From Hyphococcus sp. (lineage in GTDB: Bacteria > Pseudomonadota > Alphaproteobacteria > Caulobacterales > Parvularculaceae), in contig JANQON010000007.1 of NCBI GenBank assembly GCA_028289605.1, positions 62,001-126,000 of the forward strand: 64,000 bases of DNA. The letters run 5' to 3'. This document shows, piece by piece, positions 48,557 through 56,125 of the stretch. The position numbers were made by a program, and so were the translations under genes. A model generated the notes under the pieces. The model worked only from the letters and a program-made list of their open reading frames with translations. It did no database searches and was not told where the DNA came from. The stretch's first letter is position 1; each line of letters opens with the position of its first letter.

Positions 48557-49039
48557 ATGCTGAAAACGGCCTTAGCGTCTCTCGCTATATCAGTAGCCGC
48601 CGGATGCGCCCATGCGGAAACGGGCCAGGCCGCCATGAACGGCGAGATCTCCTCTGGCGTTATTCGCGTAAACAGCGAATACTCGGTTGCCGACACTGTG
48701 GCTCGGCTCGAAGCTGCGCTCGCTCAAAGAAACGTCACAATCATGGCGAAAATCGACCATGCCGCTAATGCTGCAGGCGTCGGCCAGGAATTGCCCGCGA
48801 CGACGCTCGTGATTTTCGGCAATCCGGCTGCGGGCACGCAATTGATGCAAGCCTCGCGTTCGGCCGGCATCGATCTGCCCATGAAAGCGCTCGTTTATGA
48901 GACCGAGGACGGTGTCGTGTTTGAATACAACGATATCGATTATATTACGGCGCGGCACGGCGTTCCCGCCGACCTTCCTATCATCGCAAGAATAAGAGGA
49001 CTTCTTGGCGCTGTCGCCGCCGAGGCGACCGGCGCCTAG
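48557..49039 (+). CDS. DUF302 family secreted protein
   Basis: A 160-residue protein starting at the ATG at 48557, with GAGGGAGAA upstream. A signal peptide precedes HAETGQ (about residue 22); the Cys at residue 17 could also form a lipobox. The domain SVADTVARLEAALAQRNVTI, then TLVIFGNPAAGTQLMQASRS and ALVYETEDGVVFEYND, is classic DUF302. Its role is unknown, often linked to redox or ligand binding. Its 3' end overlaps by four bases the convergent gene for the giant surface protein. Confidence 0.88.
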   Translation: MLKTALASLAISVAAGCAHAETGQAAMNGEISSGVIRVNSEYSVADTVARLEAALAQRNVTIMAKIDHAANAAGVGQELPATTLVIFGNPAAGTQLMQASRSAGIDLPMKALVYETEDGVVFEYNDIDYITARHGVPADLPIIARIRGLLGAVAAEATGA

Positions 49040-52000
49040 CGTTCCGGCGAAACGGCGTTCAACAGACCTTCCGCCGAGTTCTGGTCAAATTTGATACGTA
49101 AGCGAACAAATGGTCCCTGGCGCGTATACTCTGCAAAGGGAAAATCGTCATCTTTGAAGCCGTCGAAATTGTAGCCGGCGCTGATCCAGATGTTGTTGGC
49201 TGGATTGACGCCAATCGACGGCCCGAAGGAGTATTCCATCGTACCGGCGTTGTGAGAATAGAGCGCCATGATCCGGGCGCCGATATCGATCTGTTTGGTG
49301 ACGTCAAATCGCGACTCCAGGCCCGCAAGCTGTGTGAAACCTGTGTAGTTGTCATTGTCAGCATCGAAGACTGAGTACTTGATCCCGTGATTGACGGACA
49401 CTTGCCATCGATCGCTCAGCATGACATTGGCGCCGAGATTGTTGATAGCCTTCCAGCTGGTGAGTTCGCCCTCGATCTTTTGTTGTTTGACGTCGAAGCG
49501 GTCGAAAATGACAACGCCCTCTCCACGGGGACGCACGGCGAGACCGAACCGCGCGTCAATTCGGCGTTCATCGGCGGCGTCATTATTGTCGTTTTGTTCA
49601 ATGCGCATGGCGCCGGCGAATGACAACGTCTCGGTGACCTCTCGCGCGGCGCTCAAAACCCCAGTGTAGCGCGTTGAGTCCAGTGATTTTTTCATTTCAA
49701 AACGCGCCGATCCTTGGGCGCGCTCATCGCGATAGCCGGCGCCGATGAACACCGACGTGAAGTCTTCGTTGTTTTCCAACGGAGACAGCGCCGAATCCGG
49801 AACGATATCGTCAACAGCGCTGACGGAACCGCTGGCGCTGAGTTCTTCGCGCCGGCTCACGCCAAACGAGCCGGACCAGTATTCATCGATCTGCACCTGT
49901 TGGTCGACGCCGAATGTGGCGCCGATACGTTCGCCCGTGTCCTGCGTAATACGGTCGGCTGCGGTCGTCAGACGAGCGCCGCTCCACGGCTCTGCAATGA
50001 TCCCGACAATTGTGTTTGAGGAATTGACGTTGTCTCCCTCGCTGATCTCGTGGCTCACATCCAGCCGAACGGTTTTGAACAACGTCTGCTCGAACCCGAA
50101 AGTCGTGCGCTGCGGGAAGGTGATGGAGTCGTTGTCGCCAGCGATTGGCTGTTCCCTCGATGCGCGCAATGTAAGCCCGAGCTTTTCAAAGCGCTGACTG
50201 GCCTCGGCGGTCGCCAGCGTCGCGCGACGCTTCACGCCATCGGCTGTCTCTTCCACCACGCGTCGGATACCGGCGGCGGCAGAAGTGAATGCGCCGTCAT
50301 GGCGCAATTTCAAATTGGCCACGAGACGGCGCGCGCCCGTGACGATGTTTTCTTCGTGGTAGGCTTCGCCCTCGATGGAGCGTTCTCCTTTGTCGCCTGT
50401 GCGATCGGAATAGAACTCTTTGACCCGCAAACGCGCCTCCGCCCCGACGCGGCGGACGCCGGCGACGCCCGATGATTGCTGGCCGAGCCCATAGCCTGCG
50501 TCGGTCTGGTCAAAGTAAGCGCGCGCCGTAAGGCGTCCCGAAACGTGATCGACTTCCGCGAGTATGGCGTCCCCGTCTTCGGCGCCGCCGTCAGCCTGTC
50601 GCCGGGAGCGCCCGTATTCAACACGCAGGCGCGTCGTGTCTGTGACATCGACGCGCAGATCAACCGCGCCCAGATTGCTCGACGCATCGACCGCGCCCGG
50701 ACGGCCTTCCTCATAAATGGCCGTGAGTCCCGCTTCCACACGGCCGTCGGCGAAGCGCACCGCGCCGCGCCCGCCGCCGACGATGTTGCGCTCGGCTGGG
50801 GTGGCGCTCTCATACTCCGCGACAATCACATTGAGGCCGGCCTGGCCCGGCGCCGCCGGAACCGGCAAACGCAAGACAATTTCGCCAGTCTGGAAGTCAA
50901 TGTCGTAATCGAAATATCGAATGAGGGGCGTGACCTCCAGAATTTCGTCCGGACGGAAACGGTTGCGCGTCTCTACAACGATGGTTTCGCTATTGCGCAC
51001 CAAAGGCGAGGCTGAGAGCCTGAACGGTCCCGATGTTCCGTCGGCGGCGATTTCGTCGCGCATGAAATCCTGGTTGGTCTCCGCGGCGAACCCTCGGAAA
51101 CTAAATCGTCGGCTTTCATATACGGTCTGCAATCCGGAAAGCCGGCGGGAATAGGCGCCGAGCCGGGATTCGTCGAGGCCCGTGTCGTAATCGCCGAATG
51201 TCGCCTGGAACCCGCCTTTTTCCGCTTTCAGATAAAACGGAAAGCGGCTTTCCGCTTCAAAGTCCTGTCTTGAGCGGTCGCCGTATACGGAATAGCGCGC
51301 ATCCGGATCAACGTCGTCGAAGACCTGATCGTCAACGTCGCCGCGCTCTTTGTCCGTGTCCACAGCAGCGGTCACCAGCCAGTCGCCCTTGACCGTCCCC
51401 TTTGCGAAGATAGCGACGCGGCCGTCGCGCAATAGATCGCTCGCCGCCGGCGCCCCGGCCGGATCCGTTCGTTCATTCGACAAACCGCCTTCGGCGAGGC
51501 CGACGACAATCCAGTCTCGCAGTTCCGGTTTGAGGAAGGCGTCAATGTCTTCTCGTTTGTCGTTGTCGAGGAGAATTGAAAGTCTCGCCGCCCCTGTTTG
51601 CAGCGTTGGCTCCAATTCGATACGCGCGATGCCGTCCGGCCCGACAATGGCGTTGCTGACGGCGGCCAATGGTTCGGTCAACGGCGACGCGTCTTCGAGC
51701 CGCTGCAGATCCCGCGCGCGATACGGCGGTTCGATTTGCACCGGAATCAATCGGCCCGCATGGACCGGACGCCCCACGGCGTCAGTGACGCGCAGCGCCA
51801 CAATTGGCGGCGTGCGGCCGTCAGCAACCAGTCGCGAGCGATCCGGCAGAAACTCCGCGCGTTCCGCCTCGGAGACAAAAACAATCGTGCGCTCCAGACG
51901 ATCGATTTCGTTTCCGGCCTCATCGGCGACGACAGCGGTCAACGTGTTCTCGCCGTCAACGAGATCGACGCCGCGCCAGCGGGACATCGCGACGGTCAGG

Positions 52001-54081
52001 GCTTTGTTGACTTCACGGCCGGAGAAATTCGTCCCCGGCGCTTTAGACCCGTTGAGCAGCAACGTCACTCGCGTAAAGTTCGGGTGTTTTACGCCGATGT
52101 GAATAGACCGCGTCGACGGCGTGCGTCCTTCGGCGGGGTAAACGAATTCCGATTTTCCGGTCGCGCCGTTCAGCCAGGAATTGTCAAACTGCTTGTATTC
52201 CAGGGCGTCCACGAAGGCGTCATCGCTCTCCGATTGCGCCTGCCGCTCCAGCTCAAACGCCCGCTCCGTTTTGCGCAGATAAAAGTTGGCTCTCCAGACG
52301 GATCCGCCCTGAACATCCACAAATTGGGATATCGCGCTGCCGGCGTAACGGGTATTGTTTTCGCAGATAACAGGTTCGTAGCCTTCGGGCAGGCTTGCTT
52401 CATCGAGTTGAATAACGTGGCGCTTCGCCGTCACGTCCTCGAAATGAAACAGCCCGTCTTCGTCGGTGACGACATAGGCGCCGGTTTCAAGATAAAGCCG
52501 GACGCCGGGAACGCCCTGCCCGCCGTCGATGGCGCGCGGCCAGTCAGCGTCCGGGTCGCACGCGTCGGAAACGACGCGGCCGACAAGCGTGAGGTTCGAT
52601 CGCAAAAGATCCTCGCGAATAAAGACGTTTGCCTGCGCCGTGTTAGAAAGCGGCGCACCGGCGGCGTTTGCGGCGAAAGCCCTGTTTACAGCATCACCGT
52701 TTTCAGCGCCGGCGCCGATTTCAACGACATATGTGATTGTTGCGGCTTCGCCTGCGCCGAGCGTTCCGCCGGCGAAGGTCAGCGCCTCGCCCCCCGGATC
52801 AATCAACGGATCATCAAGCGCGGCCCCGTCGCGCCGGGCCGAGCCGAGCTGATAGCGAAATCCGGGCGGCATCAGGTCGCGAATGCGCAACAGGGTCGCA
52901 GTGGCGGCAACGTTCTCGACACGGATCTCGTACCGCACAAAATCGCCGATCGACGCGACCTCCGCCGACGCCGACTTGGTGACGATAACGTCGCCGCTCG
53001 GGTCAAGCGGTGCGTCGAATGTAACGTCGCCCGTACCGTCAAGCGTGAAGCTATTGAGGAACGATGCTGGAATAATGACGAACGGCCCGCCGGGCAGCGC
53101 ATCAATATCGGCTTGCGTCGCCACGGACGGCGCTGTGTAGCCAACCGGCGGGGTAATCTCCAGGCGATAGTCGCCTGGAAACATGATCGGAAACACGAAC
53201 TGTCCGGGATTGAGCGTGTAAACGACGCCCGCCGTGTCGGTCACCGGTTGTCCCGTCGTGATTGTCGAGGGATAGGCCGAGATGCCGTCGACGCCGAAGA
53301 CGCTCGCCGGTTGCCCCGTCGCCGCGTCAACGATGGTCACCACCGCCCCGTCGATCAGCGCGCCGGTGACGCTGTCGAACAGCCGACCGAACGGATCGAC
53401 GCCGGCGACGTCGGTAGAGACCTCTGTCGCATCGAAGGGATCGGTATAGGTTGCTGTCAGGTCTTGCCCTTGAACAACCGTCAGAACGCGATCGAAAGGT
53501 TGGCTCGCGCTACGACTGGATTCGAAATAGCCGAAAAACTCTCCAGTATTCGGACCTGTTTCGTAGGCTTGTACGAGGATTTCATCGCCTGTAGCCGATT
53601 CAATCCGTACCGTGATTGTTTCAATTCTAGAGGGATCGCCGTTTTGGCCCACATCTTCAACGCGGACAAAGACGACTTCGCCGCCGAAGAAATTCTCCGC
53701 CGGCGTCAACGGCAACGGCGCCGAGACATCCAAAACCGCTCCGCCGGGACCGGACACCGGCCCAATCGGCTGGAACGGGCCAACGCCGTTCGGAGAGAAG
53801 TCTGAACCGTTGAGCGCGACAAGCCGCGAGTCCGGCGCATTCGGCGAATGACGGAAAAATTCAACGGTCGAAGGCGTGCGCAACGCTTCGATCAGGAACG
53901 AAGCCGGCGCGGGCGTCACGGTGATGCGCCCGCCGGCGGGCCCGTGGGTGACGCTTGCAATGTTGCTGACGGTGGAGCCTAGCTGCGCGGCGAAAATTTC
54001 AGGCGGCAATAGGAGCATGGCAAGCCCGGCGAGCGCCGAGATTGCTCGTTTTGCTCCAAATATGCGCCGCATCAACGCCAC
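49036..54081 (-). CDS. Giant outer-membrane protein with DUF11-, Ig-like and barrel regions
   Basis: A 1681-residue protein starting with GTG at 54081 (AGGAG eight bases before). A signal peptide ends near IFAAQ (residue about 32). Residues about 33-350 are beta-rich with SNIASVTHG. About 360-495 is a DUF11-type repeat (VTKSASAEVASIGDFVRYEI). About 510-595 is a carboxypeptidase-regulatory/SdrD_B-like domain (GVRLYLETGAYVVTDEDGLF). About 610-900 includes a Big_1-like segment (LVADGRTPPIVALRVTDAVG). From about 960 to 1657 a long barrel-like series ends with FVRLRIKFDQ plus a 15-residue tail. It is probably anchored in the outer membrane with the Ig parts exposed or periplasmic. The export route is unknown. 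Confidence 0.82.
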   Translation of the reverse strand: MALMRRIFGAKRAISALAGLAMLLLPPEIFAAQLGSTVSNIASVTHGPAGGRITVTPAPASFLIEALRTPSTVEFFRHSPNAPDSRLVALNGSDFSPNGVGPFQPIGPVSGPGGAVLDVSAPLPLTPAENFFGGEVVFVRVEDVGQNGDPSRIETITVRIESATGDEILVQAYETGPNTGEFFGYFESSRSASQPFDRVLTVVQGQDLTATYTDPFDATEVSTDVAGVDPFGRLFDSVTGALIDGAVVTIVDAATGQPASVFGVDGISAYPSTITTGQPVTDTAGVVYTLNPGQFVFPIMFPGDYRLEITPPVGYTAPSVATQADIDALPGGPFVIIPASFLNSFTLDGTGDVTFDAPLDPSGDVIVTKSASAEVASIGDFVRYEIRVENVAATATLLRIRDLMPPGFRYQLGSARRDGAALDDPLIDPGGEALTFAGGTLGAGEAATITYVVEIGAGAENGDAVNRAFAANAAGAPLSNTAQANVFIREDLLRSNLTLVGRVVSDACDPDADWPRAIDGGQGVPGVRLYLETGAYVVTDEDGLFHFEDVTAKRHVIQLDEASLPEGYEPVICENNTRYAGSAISQFVDVQGGSVWRANFYLRKTERAFELERQAQSESDDAFVDALEYKQFDNSWLNGATGKSEFVYPAEGRTPSTRSIHIGVKHPNFTRVTLLLNGSKAPGTNFSGREVNKALTVAMSRWRGVDLVDGENTLTAVVADEAGNEIDRLERTIVFVSEAERAEFLPDRSRLVADGRTPPIVALRVTDAVGRPVHAGRLIPVQIEPPYRARDLQRLEDASPLTEPLAAVSNAIVGPDGIARIELEPTLQTGAARLSILLDNDKREDIDAFLKPELRDWIVVGLAEGGLSNERTDPAGAPAASDLLRDGRVAIFAKGTVKGDWLVTAAVDTDKERGDVDDQVFDDVDPDARYSVYGDRSRQDFEAESRFPFYLKAEKGGFQATFGDYDTGLDESRLGAYSRRLSGLQTVYESRRFSFRGFAAETNQDFMRDEIAADGTSGPFRLSASPLVRNSETIVVETRNRFRPDEILEVTPLIRYFDYDIDFQTGEIVLRLPVPAAPGQAGLNVIVAEYESATPAERNIVGGGRGAVRFADGRVEAGLTAIYEEGRPGAVDASSNLGAVDLRVDVTDTTRLRVEYGRSRRQADGGAEDGDAILAEVDHVSGRLTARAYFDQTDAGYGLGQQSSGVAGVRRVGAEARLRVKEFYSDRTGDKGERSIEGEAYHEENIVTGARRLVANLKLRHDGAFTSAAAGIRRVVEETADGVKRRATLATAEASQRFEKLGLTLRASREQPIAGDNDSITFPQRTTFGFEQTLFKTVRLDVSHEISEGDNVNSSNTIVGIIAEPWSGARLTTAADRITQDTGERIGATFGVDQQVQIDEYWSGSFGVSRREELSASGSVSAVDDIVPDSALSPLENNEDFTSVFIGAGYRDERAQGSARFEMKKSLDSTRYTGVLSAAREVTETLSFAGAMRIEQNDNNDAADERRIDARFGLAVRPRGEGVVIFDRFDVKQQKIEGELTSWKAINNLGANVMLSDRWQVSVNHGIKYSVFDADNDNYTGFTQLAGLESRFDVTKQIDIGARIMALYSHNAGTMEYSFGPSIGVNPANNIWISAGYNFDGFKDDDFPFAEYTRQGPFVRLRIKFDQNSAEGLLNAVSPER

Positions 54082-54130
54082 TTTGCGGGCTCCTGTACGC
54101 TACAAAAACACACCCCTTATTTGCGCGAAC

Positions 54131-54161
54131 GCCGCCGCACCGATGTCATTGGTGCGGCGGC
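54131..54161. promoter_or_regulatory. Strong inter-gene hairpin between the two surface-protein genes
   Basis: GCCGCCGCACC and its exact complement form an 11-bp stem with a 9-nt loop, in the 112-base gap behind the 390-residue protein gene. No U-run follows on the transcribed (minus) strand. It may stabilise the upstream mRNA or partially end transcription, setting unequal expression of the two proteins. Confidence 0.5.
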
Positions 54162-54193
54162 TCAGATCGCGCCAGGGGAATGTGTTTTTCGTC

Positions 54194-55366
54194 CTACTGG
54201 ACGGTCGCCCTTATGGTCAGCGTGCCTGTCGTGTTGACATTGAGAACGGCGTCGTCGAGCCGCACCTCGCATGTCACGACAGGAGGACCAACCGGATCCG
54301 GCGCGCATCCCACGGCCGGAGACGTCAACGTCCCGGCGGTTGAGAAGGATGCCTGCTGCGCAGCCACAAACACGACGCCCTCGGGCAAGAAGTCCGAGAT
54401 GTCGATATTCGAGGCCGGCTGCGTCGCCGTCGCCGCATTCGTCGCGGTAATGACGTACTCCACGCAAGCGCCTGGAGCCGCATATTGCGACGTGTTGATC
54501 TGCGTATTGGCGAAGTTCGAACAACCGAACGCCGCGCCGTCCGTCGCGAGGATGGACACCGTTTTGTTCGCAGTCAGTTCAGCTGCGCCGACCGTATAGC
54601 GTGCAGAGTCGGAGTGAGCACCGTCATTGGCGGCGTCCGCCGTCGCAGCGCCGGCGCCGTCGGCGAGGACGTTCTGGGCCTCTCCGTTGACGTTGTTGAC
54701 GCCGGTCTCGGCAAGGGTCTCATTGCCCGGCGTCGCCGTATAACCCGGATCAAGCGATGCGACCGGATTGAGCGAGTCCGCGAGCAACGCGACTTCGGCG
54801 AACTGACCGTTCGTCGCTGAACCCGGAATGTCGCCGGAGATGACGACCCAGAACGTTGCGTCTGGGGCGACATCGGTTGTCGCCGCGCCCGAACCCAACG
54901 TGTAGGCCGTGCCAGCGCCGGCGTCGTCCACGCCGGCGACGAACAGCCCGTCATTGCCTGCGTCAGGATAGAACCGCGCCGTCACCGACGTCGGATCGAA
55001 GTTGTCGCCGGCCAGGTTTTCAAGCGCGAGCGAATACGCCTGATTGTCGTTGCCGTCGTTACGGACGCCGAAGACAAGCTCTTGCGCCGTCGCGCCCGGC
55101 GCAACGGAGAGGTCGCCCTGGCTGGTTACGGTGAGGTCGACAATGCGGTCGACGGTGAACGTCGTCGGCGGGGGATTTCCGCCCACGCCGTCATTCGTGA
55201 TTTGAGTCTGGCCGACGCCGCTCACTTCGTAGTCGAGAGTGAACGTGTTCGACACCGACGTACCGGCATCGGTGCCGGCAGCCATGGCGGCGCTCGAAAA
55301 GAGCACCGCGATAAACGCCCATATAAAAAACGCCGCCGAGCGCAAGCGGCTTACGCAAGTCGTCAT
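54194..55366 (-). CDS. Secreted DUF11-type protein, partner of giant surface protein
   Basis: A 390-residue protein starting at the ATG at 55366 (AGGGGAA upstream). The signal peptide ends near AAMAAGTD (about residue 30). The motif SVSNTFTLDYEVSGVGQTQI is followed by DLTVTSQGDLSVAPGATAQE, a DUF11-like Ig domain. A second such domain follows (LTANKTVSILATDGAAFGCS, then YVITATNAATATQPASNI). It closely resembles the conserved-repeat proteins of other Alphaproteobacteria. It precedes the 1681-residue gene on the same strand and probably forms part of the same envelope structure. Confidence 0.75.
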   Translation of the reverse strand: MTTCVSRLRSAAFFIWAFIAVLFSSAAMAAGTDAGTSVSNTFTLDYEVSGVGQTQITNDGVGGNPPPTTFTVDRIVDLTVTSQGDLSVAPGATAQELVFGVRNDGNDNQAYSLALENLAGDNFDPTSVTARFYPDAGNDGLFVAGVDDAGAGTAYTLGSGAATTDVAPDATFWVVISGDIPGSATNGQFAEVALLADSLNPVASLDPGYTATPGNETLAETGVNNVNGEAQNVLADGAGAATADAANDGAHSDSARYTVGAAELTANKTVSILATDGAAFGCSNFANTQINTSQYAAPGACVEYVITATNAATATQPASNIDISDFLPEGVVFVAAQQASFSTAGTLTSPAVGCAPDPVGPPVVTCEVRLDDAVLNVNTTGTLTIRATVQ

Positions 55367-55654
55367 GGTATATTCCCCTAACACCAACTTAGGCGTTCTT
55401 TATCGAGAAAAACTGTAAATTTTCCGGCTAGGGCCTAGGGTTAATTTTATCTTTACACGTATCGAATTGGTACGAATTTCATGACAATTTGAGCGATCCA
55501 ATTAATCGCGTCATGACTTTTCCATAATTTTCCGCTGCGAAAACATCGATATTGCAAAAAAACATTGTTTCCGTAAGCCAATCAGCAACCTTTACGGAAC
55601 GTTTACCGGGTTCCGATTAGTTGAGCGCATAGCTTTAACTGTTGGAGGGCTGAT
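55367..55654. promoter_or_regulatory. AT-rich divergent promoter region of the surface-protein locus
   Basis: These 288 bases separate the 390-residue gene (minus) from the 156-residue gene (plus). The region is much more AT-rich than its flanks. It contains a perfect inverted repeat TTCCGTAA-15 nt-TTACGGAA at 55569-55599 and two AAAACAT(C/T)G motifs. Both promoters probably lie here, which would allow joint control of the locus. Confidence 0.55.
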
Positions 55655-56125
55655 ATGTTCCGTCTTGCGTCCATTACGCTCGCAATTGCGCTGGCGGCGT
55701 TCCCTTCGGCGGCTCAAGTCGCCGCTACACAGCACGTCGAAAAAGAAATCGCCGTCACCGACGCGACGGGTGCAAAAAAGATCGAACGCGTTGCGGCGGA
55801 GACCGTGGCGCCCGGTGAAGAAGTCATCTACTCGCTGCGATTTGAAAATGAGGCGACGGAACCGGCCGAGGCGCTGGTGCTTGTCATGCCGGTGCCAAAC
55901 GAGATTTCCTATGTCGAGGGTTCAGTGTCCGGCGACGGCGCAAAGGTCTCCTTTTCCGCCGACGGCGGCCAAACCTATGTTGCGCGGGGTCGCCTGACGG
56001 TGGTCGAGGCCGGCGCCGAACGGCCGGCCAAAAGCGATGAGATCACCCATATCCGGTGGACCCTTGAGGATGCGCTCGGCGTTGGCGACAAGGGCGAGGT
56101 CTCTTTCCGCGGCGTCCTGAAATAG
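55655..56125 (+). CDS. Small secreted DUF11-type protein
   Basis: A 156-residue protein with GGAGG upstream. The signal peptide ends near PSAAQVAA (about residue 21). One DUF11-like Ig domain is visible, with VEKEIAVTDATGAKKIERVA, then EVIYSLRFENEATEPAEALV and a PNEISYVEGS strand. The length fits one domain with no anchor. It is divergent from the 390- and 1681-residue genes, and all three share the DUF11-type theme, which suggests one system. It may be a subunit, chaperone or cap of that structure. Confidence 0.7.
   Translation: MFRLASITLAIALAAFPSAAQVAATQHVEKEIAVTDATGAKKIERVAAETVAPGEEVIYSLRFENEATEPAEALVLVMPVPNEISYVEGSVSGDGAKVSFSADGGQTYVARGRLTVVEAGAERPAKSDEITHIRWTLEDALGVGDKGEVSFRGVLK

Follow-up and report, generated by a model that had tools for sequence, protein, structure and literature searches.

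The locus described here encodes three putative envelope proteins that share DUF11-type domains: a giant protein with a predicted C-terminal barrel and two small secreted proteins. It lies in a stretch of 64,000 nucleotides from Hyphococcus sp. (Caulobacterales, Parvularculaceae; assembly GCA_028289605.1, contig JANQON010000007.1, positions 62,001 to 126,000), called the window below, to which the coordinates refer. An earlier account made from the letters alone, the sequence-only reading, had placed three open frames here, and all three were recovered at the same positions. The giant, P0001, has 1681 residues and a GTG start (49036..54081, minus strand). Upstream on the same strand is P0002 (54194..55366), a secreted protein of 390 residues when counted from ATG and of 397 when counted from an upstream TTG. 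The third, P0003 (55655..56125, plus strand), is a secreted protein of 156 residues with a single, C-terminally unfinished DUF11-type domain; the intergenic stretch that separates P0002 from the divergent P0003 (55367..55654) is AT-rich by reading. Each protein starts, by eye, with a stretch resembling a Sec signal peptide. Searches of the 4.29-Mb host genome at E 0.001 and then at E 1 found no second copy of any of the three.

From its N-terminus the giant reads as a signal peptide (by eye), a short donor-like segment, an SdrD_B-like region, a DUF11 domain, a CarboxypepD_reg-like stretch, further beta domains and a C-terminal beta-barrel. The first of these segments, proposed below as a strand donor, covers residues 32-72 (53866..53988, minus strand, as are all parts of P0001 and P0002) and resembles the last two strands of a DUF11 domain. 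Of the domains assigned from the sequence alone, DUF11 held up well (residues 364-472, 52666..52992; Pfam PF01345, E 3e-8, above cut-off), with a score just below the cut-off of TIGR01451. The carboxypeptidase-regulatory-like stretch (residues 521-558, 52408..52521; PF13620) was seen only below cut-off, and the Pfam matches to SdrD_B and Big_1 were weak.

The long barrel region, also noted previously, is backed by an AlphaFold2 model, the strand list of which places it at residues 858-1665 (49087..51510). Residues 500-1681, modelled with 72 sequences, gave a mean predicted local distance difference test score (pLDDT) of 84.1 and a predicted template modelling score (pTM) of 0.77. There are 32 successive strands at residues 1082-1665; all but one are at least 10 residues long, and 23 of the 32 have an alternation score of at least 3, a score used without a control. 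Before this run the model has a plug-like insert and at least two long strands; the predicted barrel comprises at least 32 strands, perhaps 34-36. When the barrel profile was compared with solved structures in the PDB, the best match was a glycoside hydrolase over 66 residues (E 0.0055), not a barrel. On the giant no TonB plug or receptor, autotransporter or usher family was detected in Pfam and NCBIfam up to E 1. The proposal that the giant is the anchor of the locus is upheld in the form that it is likely an outer-membrane anchor, by virtue of its predicted C-terminal barrel.

P0002 is composed of a donor-like N-terminal segment, a beta-rich middle and an unfinished C-terminal DUF11 domain. 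The segment (residues 31-77, 55136..55276) is supported by its homology to the N-terminus of the giant and by the DUF11-extension test described below. The C-terminal domain (residues 263-390, 54197..54580), the proposed acceptor, reaches no further than position 84 of the 114 in the Pfam model when the protein ends; it scores 24.4 bits against a Pfam cut-off of 24.6 and lies above the cut-off of TIGR01451. Two DUF11-like domains had been claimed for this protein, but just one, the C-terminal, is recognisable with Pfam. The AlphaFold2 model (pLDDT 88.9, pTM 0.77) puts the last strand of that domain at residues 379-389. P0003 has one DUF11 domain, as had been said, below the Pfam cut-off and above that of TIGR01451, and no donor segment was detected in it. 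At about residues 100-107 (window 55952-55975) P0003 has an S-x-D-x-G-x-T-Y stretch. Its S-x-D-x-G pattern is nearly invariant across the family alignment and resembles the Asp-box of sialidases; the best PDB matches of the P0003 profile are sialidases at this site (E 0.0016). The stretch could hint at sugar-related binding.

The same gene set was found in relatives. In a sample of 150 genomes of the order the giant was matched in 19, spread over 8 of 31 genera. Twenty wide loci were taken around these matches, and the 15 that hold giants of similar length (L028-L042) all have a P0002 homologue upstream on the same strand, with a gap of about 1.5 kb in L033; a P0003 homologue lies near the giant in 11 of them. 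In the more distant L043 and L044 a gene of 156 or 172 residues is followed by a DUF11 gene of 997 or 937 residues and then by the giant; the small gene of L044 is among the sequences from which the profile that detects it was built.

A scan of named genomes returned 308 relatives of the giant, of which the best 80 were used; 13 of these loci had less than 2.6 kb of upstream DNA and were dropped, leaving 67. Relatives among the best 80 of 308 came from Hellea, Robiginitomaculum, Henriciella, Litorimonas, Algimonas, Hirschia, Sphingomonas and Sphingobium, and the closest named ones in the scan, at 60% identity, were in metagenome-assembled genomes of Marinicaulis. In 66 of the 67 loci the giant is preceded, on its own strand, by a gene of the P0002 family. 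The P0003 family is found nearby in 55 (in 51 no more than 3.5 kb upstream of the giant, in 4 downstream) and is missing from the other 12; 43 of the 51 upstream genes are co-directional with the giant and 8 are divergent, as in the window. As the flanking genes differ between genera, the conservation of the set is not mere conserved context. The claim that the three families belong together is confirmed: they form one conserved set that recurs across orders.

Variants of the arrangement were also seen. In sphingomonads a fourth gene (307-329 residues) precedes the set, and in five loci the P0003 frame shares 4 bases with that of P0002, in an operon-like manner. In some genomes (loci L172 and L254) the place of the giant is taken by two proteins, one corresponding to its N-terminal part and the other to the barrel. 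Four Henriciella genomes (genus g13) without P0003 beside the giant carry it elsewhere; in this genus an IalB-family gene (L034:14036-14536) lies directly upstream of the P0002 homologue, where P0003 is missing. In a metagenome-assembled Henriciella genome (L100) the P0003 homologue is present as two short open reading frames and the end of the giant as a separate one of 77 residues; these breaks are frameshifts or sequencing errors.

The co-occurrence of the families, proposed earlier as a check on the locus, extends beyond close relatives. Within the order, all 19 giant-positive genomes were compared with 12 of the 131 giant-negative ones (genera g1, g4 and g5), and P0003 was found in 18 of the former and 1 of the latter. 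That lone gene (G010; L156/L164) has two in-frame stops in a genome with no giant at E 1e-10, and is a decaying copy. In a class sample of 289 genomes, 4 had a near-full barrel and all 4 had P0003; 6 had a partial barrel profile only, none of them with P0003, and 1 had P0003 alone. In a sample of 398 Pseudomonadota genomes, with strong P0003 matches defined as E up to 1e-15, there were 37 near-full barrels and 38 strong P0003 matches, 31 genomes having both (Fisher p 1.8e-33, ignoring relatedness). These sets are stricter than the search thresholds (55 and 45 genomes, overlap 34) and were picked after the rows had been viewed; one genome with a barrel fragment only (G668) was counted in neither group. 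Among the 31 shared genomes P0003 is upstream on the same contig and strand in 22 and on a different contig in 8, and it is divergent in the window. The mismatches are 6 near-full barrels without strong P0003 and 7 strong P0003 matches without a near-full barrel, several genomes being incomplete. Genomes with a partial barrel only had strong P0003 in 0 of 17 cases and weak P0003 in 2. P0003-family genes without a detected giant in the genome were seen in L183 (G001), L185 (G006) and L255 (G744). As the genome searches score only the best first-pass candidates, absences are less sure than presences.

The most telling feature of the set, absent from the sequence-only reading, is that the C-termini of the small proteins are unfinished. 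In P0002 and three comparable proteins the Pfam DUF11 match breaks off at position 84 of 114, no more than 6 residues from the C-terminus, and in P0003 it stops earlier, at position 64. With a wider DUF11 model an end was called unfinished when the last DUF11 ended at or before model position 112 and within 6 residues of the C-terminus. This was the case for 55 of 72 P0002-family proteins (median end 107), 50 of 55 P0003-family proteins (median 105) and none of 72 giants. Internal DUF11 domains reach a median position of 136, with 23 of 296 stopping at 112 or earlier. By this measure the P0002 and P0003 families lack roughly the last two strands of a complete DUF11 domain.

After the signal peptide both the giant and P0002 have a segment of the form aGT.v.NtA.v.y...SN.a.f.V that, by eye, resembles the end of a DUF11 domain, and the segments of the two families are homologous (hhalign probability 96.45, E 1e-9). 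In a chimera test the N-terminal segment of the next protein was appended to the C-terminus, and the gain in DUF11 score was compared with 20 controls (shuffled segments and other windows). Three DUF11 models were used. The model cl was made from the repeats of two homologues of 7042 and 5045 residues and is the fairer control, though those proteins carry a related barrel; duf2 and duf3 include domains related to these giants.

Joining the giant's segment to P0002 gave with cl a mean gain of 6.2 bits, compared with 0.5 for shuffled segments and -0.3 for other windows, and all 20 controls were beaten in 58 of 71 loci. The two other models gave 8.9 and 10.4 bits (controls 1.7-3.8), with 43 of 71 loci each. 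For the window's own P0002 the score rose from 16.4 to 28.3 bits and the end of the match moved from model position 75 to 104. For P0003 joined to the P0002 segment, the two less separate models gave 9.1 and 11.1 bits (controls 1.6-4.1), with all controls beaten in 29 and 34 of 54 loci, and the window's P0003 rose from 35.2 to 46.8 and from 61.6 to 73.3 bits. The resemblance of the N-terminal segments to the missing DUF11 end is in this way partly shown. When all 1609 windows of the giant were scanned, the end of the giant's own DUF11 domain ranked first (15.3 bits).

Unfinished C-termini together with N-termini resembling DUF11 ends suggest a chain of the 156-residue protein, the 390-residue protein and the giant, linked by strand donation. 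The giant would be held in the outer membrane by its C-terminal barrel of 32 or more strands, and its N-terminal half would carry Ig-like domains and open with the short beta segment. This segment would supply the last two strands missing from the C-terminal DUF11 of P0002, and the N-terminal segment of P0002 would in turn complete an acceptor-only protein, either P0003 or a P-domain protein of 663 residues encoded elsewhere in the genome. The outcome would be a short chain of fixed order (tip, 390-residue protein, giant), whose most likely place is the cell surface and whose most likely use is attachment.

By eye the triad has two donors (P0002 and the giant) and two acceptors (P0003 and P0002), and the four-gene operons of sphingomonads have three of each. 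Larger operons contain, on either side of the giant, additional proteins that are acceptors only and have different N-terminal domains; those seen are adhesin-like, with P-domain, SdrD_B and SpaA_4 among five scanned. The 663-residue protein (contig C14, L264:3914-5905) is the sole other DUF11 protein found in the host genome in a PF01345 search at E up to 1. Its P-domain is accompanied by one complete DUF11 and by a second DUF11-like end, and it is 55% identical to the product of the gene directly downstream of the giant in L030, from a related genus. A possible role for it is that of an alternative tip to this chain, with its gene located elsewhere. A DUF11 subtype common to P0003 and the tip-like proteins was considered and rejected, the P0002 C-terminal profile having given the lower E-value in 10 of 11.

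Distant relatives bear on where such a chain would lie. A homologue in G098 (L046/L175/L257) has 7042 residues, with 46 DUF11 domains followed by two parts that match the pre-barrel and barrel profile. The G078 protein (L258), of about 5045 residues, is similar, and both have a barrel-like end with the last residues VGKF. Both are candidates for fibres of the grappling-hook type with their own outer-membrane anchor. The periplasm has no room for a string of 46 DUF11 domains, and by homology the giant's N-terminal half is probably outside the cell. Relatives of the giant were also found in 23 plasmid records, two of which cover at least 80% of it. On an Acinetobacter haemolyticus plasmid a 156-residue gene matching the P0003 profile (E 3e-22) is followed by NEW3 and DUF11 genes, a giant of 2008 residues, an OmpA-family gene and a DUF11 gene of 978 residues. 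A plasmid of Synechococcus NIES-970 has a separate barrel protein (E 2e-88) near a 187-residue gene that is 26% identical to P0003; as this gene is a row of the P0003 profile, its profile score is not independent. Partial barrel homologues on plasmids are annotated as "TonB-dependent receptor" or "OmpA family protein", which are probably loose names.

Several results count against strand donation. With the cl model P0003 gained only 2.6 bits from the P0002 segment (median 0.8; controls 0.2 and 0.9) and beat all controls in 11 of 54 loci, and the window's own P0003 did not gain at all (3.8 to 3.0 bits). In the scan of the giant the N-terminus ranked second, but its 12.4 bits are close to those of two internal places (12.0 and 11.7), and with another model it ranked third. 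The donor profile derived from the giants detects the N-terminus of 11 of 73 P0002 members, and the search in the opposite direction 6 of 73. The best match of the giant's N-terminal profile was to the end of the giant's own DUF11 domain, yet at no better than E 0.11, and the corresponding P0002 profile gave no match to that end (both hhalign). Unfinished ends are not confined to P0002 and P0003 of the sets: 98 of 181 other DUF11 open reading frames in the same loci end likewise, a count that includes members of the same families outside the sets and repeated reads of the same loci. In the P0002 model the ten-residue blocks of residues 31-80 have pLDDT 90-95, and it is possible that so well placed a segment packs on P0002's own domains. 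Acceptors outnumber donors once the 663-residue protein or the acceptor-only genes of the larger operons are counted, and the unfinished end of the 663-residue protein was read by eye, its model match stopping 39 residues before the end.

Weighing these points, we put the probability of the whole reading, a small surface-assembly system with a split-DUF11 chain and a barrel anchor, at about 0.52. The gene set is real, conserved and apparently undescribed, and the unfinished C-termini, the homology between the two N-terminal segments and the barrel model are likewise shown. Strand donation is a well-motivated hypothesis; the donation itself, the surface location, the adhesive role and the occupant of the tip are inferred. 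An alternative that keeps strand donation, and that seems unlikely but deserves serious attention, makes P0003 a periplasmic cap or chaperone that sits on donor segments before export, the 663-residue type being the true tip. P0003 has its own divergent transcription unit in the window and is encoded away from the giant in the four genus g13 genomes, and in several operons P0003 occurs together with a larger acceptor-only protein, so that acceptors exceed donors. A capping role fits less well with a protein that has no detected donor segment and itself looks unfinished, unlike the chaperones of chaperone-usher systems, which are complete two-domain proteins. Rather improbable is the suggestion that ordinary DUF11 surface proteins have simply been kept as neighbours and act separately, the unfinished ends being a domain-boundary effect. 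DUF11 is common, loosely defined and of low sequence signal, the cross-family donor tests were weak and many other DUF11 frames end alike; yet two families have a sharp end point that giants lack, conservation of the set reaches across orders, and the cl-model gain exceeds all controls in most loci.

Slightly less probable again is a chain in the periplasm, in which the barrel, serving as a channel or structural pore, is tied to the cell wall by the N-terminal Ig domains and the small proteins. The N-terminal extensions of ordinary outer-membrane barrels do lie in the periplasm, and on the Acinetobacter plasmid an OmpA-family gene comes directly after the giant. Against such a placement stand the length of the 46-DUF11 homologue, which greatly exceeds what the periplasm could accommodate, and the adhesin-like N-terminal domains of the acceptor-only proteins. 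Least probable by far is an identity of the giant as TonB-dependent receptor or classical autotransporter, with genes beside it that have nothing to do with it. The annotation of some partial plasmid homologues points that way, but no such model matched, the neighbours are conserved, and the barrel model is far larger than the 12 strands of autotransporters or the 22 of TonB receptors; both identities were dropped on the family searches and the predicted barrel size. Neither of the two outcomes that the sequence-only reading named as refuting it, a set confined to close relatives or a giant of one of these known kinds, was borne out. An S-layer role was likewise dropped, there being no direct evidence for an S-layer, nor any for the chaperone role that the sequence-only reading allowed the small proteins.

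A close mechanistic parallel to the proposed split-DUF11 chain is with chaperone-usher pili, in which incomplete Ig-type subunits are completed by the N-terminal segment of the next subunit in donor-strand exchange. The proposed likeness comprises an acceptor-only tip, completion by an N-terminal segment and a large outer-membrane barrel at the base; the sequence pattern agrees in part with such completion. The proposed system differs in that DUF11 domains lack their C-terminal strands, that a donor segment is fused to the barrel protein and that the chain is apparently short and fixed, not a polymer; usher and periplasmic chaperone families were absent from P0001, P0002 and P0003 up to E 1. 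In the size of its predicted single-chain barrel the giant resembles SprA/Sov, the translocon of the type IX system, which has a 36-strand barrel, though SprA was not matched by the giant's barrel profile in the PDB sequence-profile search. To our knowledge, very large single-chain barrels are few.

Other DUF11 proteins at cell surfaces offer partial comparisons. The "grappling hook" proteins Aureispira GhpA and Litorilinea GhlA are, in the sections consulted of PMC13319060, single giant polypeptides, GhlA having 49 DUF11 domains. The likeness to GhlA lies in DUF11 domains strung as beads at the cell surface, as those sections present it (PMC13319060). At the present locus the proposed chain is instead split over several short proteins, with one DUF11 stretch in the giant; no barrel is described for GhpA or GhlA in the same sections of PMC13319060, whereas the giant has a predicted one. 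In F-ENA spore appendages a DUF11-bearing protein has been proposed as the anchor of a surface fibre, according to the portions consulted of PMC11952670; these are appendages of Gram-positive spores, with DUF4183 anchor domains and no outer membrane (PMC11952670, same portions). No named system with this three-family set was found in the open-licence DUF11 literature, among the matches listed, in agreement with the sequence-only reading, which knew of none.

Beside the locus, a gene for a DUF302 protein (window 48560-49039) lies on the strand opposite the giant, and its end overlaps the end of the giant by 4 bases.

A broader proposal, which we hold tentatively and regard as doubtful in its entirety, is an unnamed and widespread pathway of outer-membrane assembly in Pseudomonadota and Cyanobacteria, independent of chaperone and usher, in which a barrel of about 34-36 strands would export and anchor a fixed-order split-DUF11 chain with interchangeable acceptor-only tip adhesins. 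If the split-DUF11 chain is real, strand donation would have arisen with a second, unrelated set of parts, and the gene set itself would fix the order of the subunits. Another family of very large barrels would be of interest to structural biologists. Proteins now named "DUF11 domain-containing", "TonB-dependent receptor" or "OmpA family" in sphingomonads, Caulobacterales and other bacteria would then be given a concrete and testable job.

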